Assembly (NCBI RefSeq): GCF_030845995.1
Contig: NZ_CP132719.1
Span: forward strand, 124,001-188,000
Length of the DNA: 64,000 nucleotides
Reading direction: 5' to 3'
From: Geothrix sp. 21YS21S-4
GTDB taxonomy: Bacteria > Acidobacteriota > Holophagae > Holophagales > Holophagaceae
Below are positions 18,859 to 25,769 of this stretch, one piece after another (within the stretch, counting starts at the first letter, position 1; each line of letters begins with the position of its first letter). The notes beneath the pieces were generated by a model, which saw only the letters and a list, made by a program, of their open reading frames with translations, did not search any database and was not told where the DNA came from. A program made the translations under genes and the position numbers.

Positions 18859-18889
18859 TTGAGCTTCCAGTCGGCTGGAACCCTACCCT
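18859..18889 (+). promoter_or_regulatory. MerR-type promoter and operator of the merR-copZ-copA operon
   Basis: A -35 box TTGAGC (18859-18864) and a -10 box TACCCT (18884-18889) are separated by 19 bases rather than the usual 17. The spacer carries the dyad TTCCAGTCGGCTGGAA (18865-18880). An over-long 19-20-base spacer holding a dyad is the hallmark of promoters activated by MerR-family metal sensors, which untwist the DNA to align the two boxes. It lies 26 bases upstream of the merR start, so the operon is very likely autoregulated. Confidence 0.8.
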
Positions 18890-18915: not shown

Positions 18916-19383
18916 ATGCAGACCCTCGATAACCCCGTTTCCGCCGCTCGTCCGCGGCTGCTCAAGATCGGCGAACTGGCCGCCCGGTCGGGGCTGACCC
19001 CGCGGAACCTGCGCTTCTACGCCGATGCCGGCGTCTTCGGCGAGCTGCCCCGCTCCGCCAAGGGCTACCGGCTTTTCCCGGCGGAGGCTTTGCAGTGGGT
19101 GCGCCTCCTCCAGGCTTCCCAGGCCGCCGGATTCTCCCTGGAGGAGATCGGGGAGCTGCTGCGGACCCTCCGCCAGGACGCGCCGCCCTGCGGCCAGGTG
19201 CGGGAGGCCCTGGGCGGCCGGCTCGCGGGCCTGGAGGCGAAATTGGCGGAGATCCACGCGCTGGTGGACATCCTGCGCGCGGCTTTGGGTACCCCCGACG
19301 GCCGCAGGGGCGCCGTCGGCTGCAGCCTGCTGGAGACCCTGCTGGCCGAAACCCAGCGTCTGCCCCTGCGGACCCACCCCTGA
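18916..19383 (+). CDS. MerR-family metal-responsive transcriptional regulator
   Basis: 155 residues. Winged helix-turn-helix at 15-60 (LLKIGELAARSGLTPRNLRFYADAG followed by RSAKGYRLF), then a long dimerisation helix (about 93-125) and a short C-terminal metal loop. Two Cys occur in sensor positions: Cys92 in PPCGQV, equivalent to Cys79 of ZntR/PbrR-type sensors, and Cys136 in VGCSLL. The second Cys of the CueR loop is not evident, so the metal specificity is unclear even though the operon encodes a copper chaperone and pump. The ATG at 18916 has GGGAGG four to five bases upstream. The last 49 bases of the gene are part of the tandem duplication that runs into copZ. Confidence 0.88.
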   Translation: MQTLDNPVSAARPRLLKIGELAARSGLTPRNLRFYADAGVFGELPRSAKGYRLFPAEALQWVRLLQASQAAGFSLEEIGELLRTLRQDAPPCGQVREALGGRLAGLEAKLAEIHALVDILRAALGTPDGRRGAVGCSLLETLLAETQRLPLRTHP

Positions 19384-19568
19384 AGGAGATCGCGATGTCC
19401 ACCCAGACCTATCGAGTCCACGGCATGACCTGCGGCGGCTGCGTCCGCCATGACCCTGCTGGCCGAAACCCAGCGCCTGCCCCTGCGGACCCACCCCTGA
19501 AGGAGATCGCGATGTCCACCCAGACCTATCGAGTCCACGGCATGACCTGCGGCGGCTGCGTCCGCCAT
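19335..19568 (+). repeat. 117-bp direct tandem duplication across the merR 3' end and copZ 5' end
   Basis: Two adjacent 117-base units, 19335-19451 and 19452-19568. Each runs from GACCCTGCTGGCC to GCGTCCGCCAT. I see a single difference between them (GCGTCTGCC versus GCGCCTGCC). Each unit contains the last 49 bases of merR including its stop, a copy of the ribosome site AAGGAGAT and the first 19 codons of copZ. Because 117 is divisible by three, the reading frame from the first copZ start stays open into the second. The near-identity suggests a recent event. Confidence 0.95.
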
Positions 19569-19718
19569 GTCGAAAAGGCCCTGCGCGGCGCGCCGGGAGT
19601 GGAGACGGCCGCCGTGGATCTGGCCGCGGGCATCGCCACCGTGACGGGAACGGCGGCGTTCGAAGGGCTTGCCGCCCGGGTGGCCCACGCGGGCTACCGG
19701 CTGGAGCGGACGGCCTAG
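19395..19718 (+). CDS. copZ: HMA-domain copper chaperone (CopZ-like), duplicated 5' end
   Basis: Two usable starts. The ATG at 19512 gives a standard 68-residue CopZ-type chaperone: MSTQTYRVHGMTCGGCVRH, then the ferredoxin-like fold ending AGYRLERTA. The Cys pair in MTCGGC binds Cu(I) and hands it to the ATPase. The ATG at 19395, created by the tandem duplication and with an identical ribosome site (AAGGAGATCGCG), reads in frame through it and would give 107 residues. That form has a second MTCGGC motif 39 residues earlier, joined by a Pro/Ala-rich linker decoded from merR DNA in another frame. Either or both proteins may be made. Lies between merR and copA in one operon; copA follows after 12 bases. 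Confidence 0.88.
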   Translation: MSTQTYRVHGMTCGGCVRHDPAGRNPAPAPADPPLKEIAMSTQTYRVHGMTCGGCVRHVEKALRGAPGVETAAVDLAAGIATVTGTAAFEGLAARVAHAGYRLERTA

Positions 19719-19730
19719 GCCGGCGGACCC

Positions 19731-21830
19731 ATGGCCACCCGCACCTATGCCGTCACGGGGATGACCTGCGCCTCCTGCGTCCGCCACGTGGAGCGGGCGC
19801 TCGCGGGCACGCCGGGCGTCCGGAGCGCGTCCGTCAACCTGGCCACCGCGTCCGCCACCGTGGAGGGCGAAGCGCCCTTCGAGGCGCTGGCGGCGGAGGT
19901 CGAGGAGGCGGGCTACGGCCTGAAGGAGGCTGCCGCCTCCTCAGCGGAAGAGGATCCGGGCCCTGCCCGGCGGCTGGCGGTGGCCTGGGTGCTGACGGCG
20001 CCGCTGCTGCTGTCCATGGTCCCCGGCGCGGGATTGCATCTTCCGGGCTGGCTCCAGGCCGCGCTGTCGGCGCCGGTGGTCTTCGGCGCGGGGTGGGGCT
20101 TCTTCCGCCGCGCCGCCCGGCAGGCCCGGCACGGTCAGGCATCCATGGATTCCCTGATCGCCCTGGGCGCGGGCGTGGCCTGGGGGTTCGCGGTGGTGGA
20201 GTGGCTGAACGGCGCCCACCACCTCAGCTTCGAGACCGCCGCGGCCCTGGTGGCCTTCCTGCTCACCGGGAAGTATCTCGAGGCCCGGGCCAAGTCCAAG
20301 GCTACGGACGCCCTTAAGGAACTGCTGGCCCTGGCGCCTCCCACGGCGCTGCGCTTGGCGGCGGACGGATCCGCGGAGGAGGTGCCCGTGGCCGCCCTCC
20401 GGCCTGGGGATCGCGTGCGGATCCTGCCCGGCCACGCCGTTCCCGCCGACGGGCGGATCCTGGCGGGCCGGGCCGAAGTGGACGAATCCATGCTCACCGG
20501 CGAGCCCCTGCCCGTGCCGAAAGGTGTCGGCGAGGCGCTGGTGGCGGGCACGGTCGTCCATGGTTCCGCCCTCGAACAGGAGGTCCTGGCTGTGGGTGCG
20601 GAGACCCAGCTGGCCCGCATGGCCGCGCTGGTGGCCGAAGCCCAGGGGTCGAAGGCGCCAGCCCAGGATCTGGCGGACCGGATCAGCGCCGTCTTCGTGC
20701 CGGCCATCCTCCTGCTCGCGCTCCTGACCCTGACGGGATGGTGGATCGCCACGGGCAGCCTGACCCAAGCCTGGCGCCCCCCCGTGACCCTGCTCGTGAT
20801 CGCGTGCCCCTGCGCTCTGGGCCTCGCCACGCCCGTGGCAGTGATGGTGGGGATCGGCGCGGCGGCCCGCCGGGGCGTGCTCGTGCGGGACGCCGCGGCG
20901 TTGGAAGCCCTGGGTCAGGCCACGGATCTCGCCTTCGACAAGACGGGCACCCTCACGGAGGGGCGGCCCCGCTTGCGGCGGATCCTTGCTCTGTCGGATC
21001 GATCGGAGGCCAGTCTGCTGGAAGTGGCCGCCCGCCTGGAGCGGGATTCGGAGCATCCTATCGCCCGCGGGCTGGTGGCGGCGCACGGCGGAACTTTGAA
21101 GCCGGTGGCGGACTTCCGCGTGCACCCCAGCGGCGGCGTCAGCGGCGTCGTGGATGGTACCGCCTGGCAGCTGGGCAGCGCGGCGTTCCTGGAGACGGAC
21201 TTCCCCCAGGTGGATGCGGACGGCATCGCCGTGGGGCTGGCGGAGGCCTCCGGCTTGAAGGGCGTGCTCGTCCTCGGCGACCGACTGCGCCCCGAGACCC
21301 CGGCGGTGGTGGCGGAACTCGCGCGGCAGGGGCTGAAGCTGCATCTCCTCACGGGAGACCGGCCCCAGGGCGCCCAGGCCATGGCCGATGCGGCCGGGAT
21401 CGGCTCCGTGGCCGCTGGCCTGCGGCCCGAGGACAAGCTGGCGCGCATCCGCGATCTTCAGGCGAAGGGTGCCGTCGTGGGCTTCGTAGGTGATGGCGTG
21501 AACGACGCGCCGGCGTTGGCCCAGGCGGACTGCGGGATCGCGATGGGCTCCGGCGCGGGCGAACAGGGTACGGGCGCCGCCATGGCCGCCGCCGCGCTGG
21601 TCCTGCTGCGGCCGGGGCTGGAGCCTGTTCTGGCCTCCCGGCGGCTGGCGCTCCGCACCCATCGGGTGATCCGCCAGAACCTGGGCTGGGCCTTTGGCTA
21701 CAACCTCGTTCTGGTTCCCCTGGCTGCCTTCGGCTGGCTGGAGCGCTTCGGCGGACCGATGCTCGCGGGCGTGGCCATGGGGCTCAGCTCGCTCACGGTC
21801 GTTTTGAACGCCCTACGGCTGCGGCGCTAG
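19731..21830 (+). CDS. copA: copper-translocating P1B-type ATPase
   Basis: 699 residues. Exports Cu(I) across the inner membrane using ATP. One N-terminal HMA domain (GMTCASCVRHVERAL, about 8-22), then eight membrane segments. The actuator loop has LTGEPLPVPKG (about 255), the intramembrane metal site is CPCALGLATP (about 362), the phosphorylation site is DKTGTLTEG (about 404), and GDGVNDAPALAQADCGIAMG (about 585) is the hinge. In the last two helices GYNLVLVP and MGLSSLTVVLNALRLRR match the YN and M-S motifs of Cu(I)-selective IB-1 ATPases. The 3' end overlaps convergent galU by four bases. Third gene of the MerR-controlled operon. Confidence 0.95.
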   Translation: MATRTYAVTGMTCASCVRHVERALAGTPGVRSASVNLATASATVEGEAPFEALAAEVEEAGYGLKEAAASSAEEDPGPARRLAVAWVLTAPLLLSMVPGAGLHLPGWLQAALSAPVVFGAGWGFFRRAARQARHGQASMDSLIALGAGVAWGFAVVEWLNGAHHLSFETAAALVAFLLTGKYLEARAKSKATDALKELLALAPPTALRLAADGSAEEVPVAALRPGDRVRILPGHAVPADGRILAGRAEVDESMLTGEPLPVPKGVGEALVAGTVVHGSALEQEVLAVGAETQLARMAALVAEAQGSKAPAQDLADRISAVFVPAILLLALLTLTGWWIATGSLTQAWRPPVTLLVIACPCALGLATPVAVMVGIGAAARRGVLVRDAAALEALGQATDLAFDKTGTLTEGRPRLRRILALSDRSEASLLEVAARLERDSEHPIARGLVAAHGGTLKPVADFRVHPSGGVSGVVDGTAWQLGSAAFLETDFPQVDADGIAVGLAEASGLKGVLVLGDRLRPETPAVVAELARQGLKLHLLTGDRPQGAQAMADAAGIGSVAAGLRPEDKLARIRDLQAKGAVVGFVGDGVNDAPALAQADCGIAMGSGAGEQGTGAAMAAAALVLLRPGLEPVLASRRLALRTHRVIRQNLGWAFGYNLVLVPLAAFGWLERFGGPMLAGVAMGLSSLTVVLNALRLRR

Positions 21831-23979: not shown

Positions 23980-24084
23980 AAATCTCCTGGGCAGTTGAGG
24001 CTGCGAGGAGCTGAGGGAAGAGCCGAGGGGGCGGAAGCCGCTGAGGAGCTTTCAGGGCGCGGAAGCACGAGGGTGTGGAAGCGT

Positions 24085-24109
24085 GGGCGTCTTTGAAAAC
24101 CGGATAGAA
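24085..24109 (+). promoter_or_regulatory. 5' arm of the pre-16S RNase III processing stem
   Basis: These 25 bases are complementary to 25817-25841 just after the 16S gene (GGCGTCTTTGAAAACCGGAT against ATCCGGTTTTTAAAGACGCT). Two of the 25 pairs are G-U; all others are Watson-Crick. Such long stems flanking rRNA are the usual RNase III cleavage sites in the primary rrn transcript. Confidence 0.8.
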
Positions 24110-24227
24110 GATAGGAAGCCTTTGAGGGTTTCGTGGGACGTTCTAGGACGGGCTGCGAAATTCAGAGAAATACGACCAGAACATTGGCCTGAGGACGAGA
24201 GTTCTTGGGTTTGAGGGTTCAGGAATG

Positions 24228-25769
<1,542 letters not shown>

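Follow-up and report, generated by a model that had tools for sequence, protein, structure and literature searches.

The locus between merR and copZ of Geothrix sp. 21YS21S-4 raises a simple question. The end of the regulator gene and the beginning of the copper chaperone gene stand there twice, head to tail, so how did this repeat arise, and has the extended CopZ that it could encode been gained under selection or by chance? We analysed a stretch of 64,000 nucleotides (hereafter the window; NCBI RefSeq assembly GCF_030845995.1, contig NZ_CP132719.1, positions 124,001 to 188,000), to which all coordinates refer unless stated otherwise. The features around the repeat are as follows.

18859..18889, + strand: MerR-type promoter-like element read in the sequence (TTGAGC, a 19-nt spacer with the dyad TTCCAG..CTGGAA, and TACCCT)
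18916..19383, + strand: intact merR-family regulator gene, 155 aa (Pfam MerR_1 and MerR-DNA-bind)
19335..19451, + strand: copy 1 of the duplication unit, comprising the merR end, an 11-nt spacer with ribosome site and copZ codons 1-19 (sequence, tandem-repeat search)
19452..19568, + strand: copy 2 of the unit, one base different, continuing into intact copZ (sequence, tandem-repeat search)
19395..19718, + strand: long copZ frame, 107 aa, with two MTCGGC motifs (stop-free translation)
19512..19718, + strand: normal copZ frame, 68 aa, with the HMA domain (Pfam PF00403; 51-71% identical to CopZ of relatives)
19731..21830, + strand: copA, Cu+-type P1B ATPase, 699 aa (TIGR01511, 500.8 bits against a cut-off of 397)

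The gene order on the + strand is a MerR-family regulator, copZ (HMA domain) and copA (copper-type P1B ATPase), and copA starts 12 nt past the copZ stop. The 31-nt promoter-like layout was also found upstream of merR in the four relatives examined (L004, L006, L009 and L012). A sigma-70 scan found no promoter, as expected from the 19-nt spacer of the MerR type. The operon thus resembles a typical copper operon of the MerR type that regulates itself, with the 31-nt element as its putative promoter. For the regulator at 18916-19383, which heads the copZ-copA operon, ZntR, MerR and CueR were the best NCBIfam matches, about equal and all below cut-off. The start of copZ (19512-19567) and the start of the copA HMA region (19731-19786) share 77% of their bases over 56 nt, and their products are 60% identical over 68 aa. 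This similarity suggests an older duplication between the chaperone and the ATPase domain. Further downstream, minus-strand open reading frames at positions 24050-25100 of the window look like ribosomal RNA read on the opposite strand, and an rRNA operon presumably begins near 24 kb.

The repeat itself is clear. The two copies, 117 bp each, are arranged head to tail and are identical at 116 of 117 positions, in agreement with the original prediction of such a duplication with one base difference. Both TRF and a repeat finder reported 19335-19569 with a period of 117 bp, 2.0 copies and a 99% match; its score is by far the highest of any tandem repeat in the window (463 against 71 for the next). 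A match of this quality is not due to chance. Each unit begins with the final 49 nt of merR, stop included, passes through the 11-nt spacer that carries the ribosome site, and ends after 57 nt (19 codons) of copZ. The sole mismatch, T19359 against C19476, is synonymous in merR; most relatives have CGC or CGG as the homologous Arg codon, and two have CGT, one of them the near relative L004. Since the breakpoint bases G19335 and G19569 share only one base (G), the repeat points to an illegitimate duplication, not to recombination between long repeats.

The unit length of 117 bp is divisible by three, and the end of merR contains no stop codon when read in the copZ frame, so that the frame from ATG 19395 runs on into the intact copZ. 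From this ATG to the TAG at 19716-19718 there is a single open frame of 107 residues, in which MTCGGC occurs at residues 11-16 and 50-55. The two motifs are joined by the Pro/Ala-rich linker DPAGRNPAPAPADPPLKEIA, which is the merR tail and the spacer translated in the copZ frame. The read-through frame with two motifs and such a linker was thus foreseen correctly, and so was the intact start of the 68-residue form: ATG 19512 is preceded by the AAGGAGA ribosome site just as ATG 19395 is, and retains the identical upstream 77 nt. It sits within the translated long copZ frame. The merR stop (TGA, 19381-19383) lies 11 nt ahead of ATG 19395, and merR-copZ gaps are also short in some relatives (13-35 nt), which makes coupling between the translation of merR and that of the upstream copZ start plausible. 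Since ATG 19395 follows the merR stop so closely and has a strong ribosome site, a coupled restart would probably favour the long form.

The age of the duplication was estimated by comparison with relatives. In a DNA search of 60 genomes the operon proved widespread in the genus, the closest being about 78% identical over the operon. At all 29 inspected loci of relatives, copZ has 67-68 codons, adjoins copA and carries one MTCGGC, and none of the 29 has a tandem repeat at the merR/copZ border; merR was recognised directly upstream of copZ in 27 of them. We also scanned 47 genomes of the genus for pairs of MTCGGC codings at a distance of 102-132 nt. The double motif was found in one, the window's own, and in none of the 46 others. 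Since the relatives at all 29 loci have a single unit and the 46 other genomes lack the double motif, the duplication is, as far as the compared genomes show, recent and restricted to this lineage, in which the species is represented by one genome. The comparison with close relatives that had been proposed at the outset therefore gave the single unit and a CopZ of 67-68 aa throughout, and the proposed recency stood: the copies differ at 1/117 positions (95% CI 0.02-4.8%), against an operon DNA divergence of 22-32% from other species of the genus, in all of which the duplication is absent. Gene conversion could be an alternative way of keeping the copies alike.

How surprising is an open fusion of this kind? 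We simulated 35,490 breakpoint pairs on the single-copy sequence, each joining the last part of merR to copZ, and 33% of them gave an in-frame, open fusion. The in-frame reading is therefore little evidence of selection. It is even less telling because frameshifted versions, in which junk translated from the upstream start competes with CopZ, might be removed. As for the repeat background of the genome, 20 stretches together with the window (464 kb) contained one other array with a match of at least 95% and a period above 100, an RHS-like repeat. Long near-perfect tandem repeats are uncommon in this genome, and not unique. The other array (L112:439-1739 within C1:1550001-1570000 of the same genome) is a 453-bp repeat in 2.9 copies with a 96% match; it lies within a long open reading frame whose sequence resembles RHS/YD repeats.

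Parallel cases were sought in 84,980 species' genomes, the window's own genome being excluded, by a scan for pairs of MTCxxC motifs at a spacing of 102-132 nt in the exact coding ATG-ACN-TGY; the scan is blind to other codings or spacings. It gave 88 matches at 69 loci, of which 33 were in frame and open. On inspection by eye, these 33 were rejected as CopZ or HMA parallels, since they were low-complexity arrays, multihaem-like or zinc-ribbon-like proteins, or antisense reading. Within the limits of this pattern, the 84,980 genomes contained no CopZ with a comparable in-frame double MTCxxC. A plasmid search returned only short matches to copZ/copA HMA coding in other bacteria and no duplication, and literature searches for N-terminally extended or partly duplicated CopZ proteins brought up nothing similar.

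The long CopZ was then considered as a protein. Pfam recognises a sole HMA stretch (PF00403) at residues 44-101, with 76.2 bits against a gathering score of 24.8. The MTCGGC at residues 50-55, the MxCxxC metal loop, is invariant in 27 aligned sequences. The best curated CopZ model, NF047957 (CopZ_AFE_1862), gave 74.4 bits against a cut-off of 85. A CopZ-type chaperone is indicated by the Pfam HMA domain, the MxCxxC loop and the neighbouring copper-type P1B ATPase. In the AlphaFold2 model, residues 41-105 show the usual strand-helix order of an HMA domain (pLDDT about 84-90), whereas residues 1-39 are without secondary structure at a pLDDT of about 50, a low value that is partly inevitable as no homologue covers the extension. 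Residues 1-39 are predicted to be disordered. Of the domain, copy 1 contributes only strand 1, the metal loop and the opening turn of helix 1, and the Pro/Ala-rich linker follows. The 107-aa CopZ does not contain two complete HMA domains, and the idea of a functional second metal-binding domain was not borne out, with one Pfam HMA stretch and no predicted structure in residues 1-39. From the chemistry, a flexible CxxC in the tail could bind Cu(I).

The explanation that we consider probable is a single, recent and nearly neutral illegitimate tandem duplication, which mainly gives a long CopZ with a working C-terminal domain. One such event in this lineage would have doubled the end of merR together with the ribosome site and 19 codons of copZ, leaving merR and the full-length copZ intact. 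By a one-in-three chance, the start created upstream would have come to lie in frame with the original one. Having finished merR, ribosomes would most likely begin again at the first ATG, and CopZ would be produced mainly in the 107-residue form; we infer this choice of start, as we do the stability of the protein and its neutrality. The product would be the usual HMA domain preceded by a disordered tail of 39 residues with a spare CxxC, some 68-residue protein might be made from the second start, and the effect on copper handling is probably close to neutral.

A selected gain of function under copper stress, through a second Cu(I) site in the tail or through an extra ribosome site raising CopZ output, seems unlikely to us. 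The frame is open and in phase and both MTCGGC loops are intact, but an in-frame outcome is expected by chance once in three times, and copy 1 lacks most of the HMA domain. In Haemophilus influenzae, the copy number of copZ is variable and its deletion lowers copper tolerance (PMC10187127), which would be in keeping with selection, but the duplication studied here is absent from all relatives and bears no mark of having been maintained for long. Within the copZ part of copy 1, all 57 bases are unchanged; this would fit selection to keep copy 1, and recency alone explains it as well. The reading of the locus as an innovation or as a product of metal selection, part of the original prediction, is thus not supported, and the data speak neither for nor against metal selection. 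In its strongest form, in which the long CopZ is expressed, takes up a second Cu(I) via the duplicated loop and has been selected, with a linker borrowed from the neighbouring regulator gene as an incipient second site, this reading is very unlikely.

As unlikely as a selected gain of function is a regulatory side effect of the duplication, in which the nearly self-complementary ribosome-site segment GGAGAUCGCGAUGUCC, now doubled, pairs with its copy and damps both copZ starts. The two sites are paired in the MFE structure. In predicted ensembles about 13.9 of 17 bases are paired between the two ribosome sites, and the probability that a ribosome site is unpaired is predicted at 0.25, against 0.50-0.55 in the single-copy version. 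The start codon itself, however, is not less accessible, and the whole-region z is only -2.1. Since 8.3% of random 23-mers from the window self-pair as strongly, and ribosomes on merR and on the long copZ would open the helix, the pairing is an incidental possibility and not a finding.

An assembly artefact, with a single unit in the true genome, is less likely and we regard it as doubtful even though the species has only one genome, because the assembly is one 3.08-Mb contig that is 100% complete, the copies differ by one base so that neither is verbatim, and short tandem repeats are more often collapsed than created during assembly.

If the near-neutral duplication is the right explanation, as is likelier, the locus is a routine recent duplication. 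If the extension is real and expressed, it would be a clean young case of a one-step N-terminal extension by a boundary-spanning tandem duplication, with the old start as a fallback, and a handy way to see whether copper handling is altered by a surplus CxxC in a disordered tail. Annotation pipelines may pick the 107-aa start, resulting in an apparently new CopZ architecture.

The locus can finally be set beside known systems. The N-terminus of a bacterial CopA (PDB IDs: 1p6t and 2rml), matched here by sequence, is an example of a protein with two HMA domains and has more than one MTCxxC per chain. The long CopZ resembles it in having more than one MTCxxC in one chain; the CopA N-terminus, however, consists of two complete folded domains, whereas the long CopZ has one domain and a fragment. 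Compared with bacterial CopZ/Atx1-like chaperones (HMA domain, GMTCxxC), residues 40-107 are an ordinary 68-aa CopZ, and the difference lies in the 39 further N-terminal residues that may precede it and carry a second MTCGGC. The closest known parallel is the whole-gene tandem copZ of H. influenzae, in which 3-7 whole tandem copZ copies lie between cueR and copA, their number varying among strains (PMC10187127); the authors of that study were not aware of a comparable copZ duplication in any other bacterial system (PMC10187127). Both loci have a MerR-type regulator, copZ and copA side by side and a near-identical tandem duplication at copZ. In H. influenzae the repeat comprises entire copZ genes, whereas the unit here is no whole-gene copy: it takes 19 of the 68 codons together with the upstream merR tail, and gives an N-terminal extension instead of an extra chaperone.
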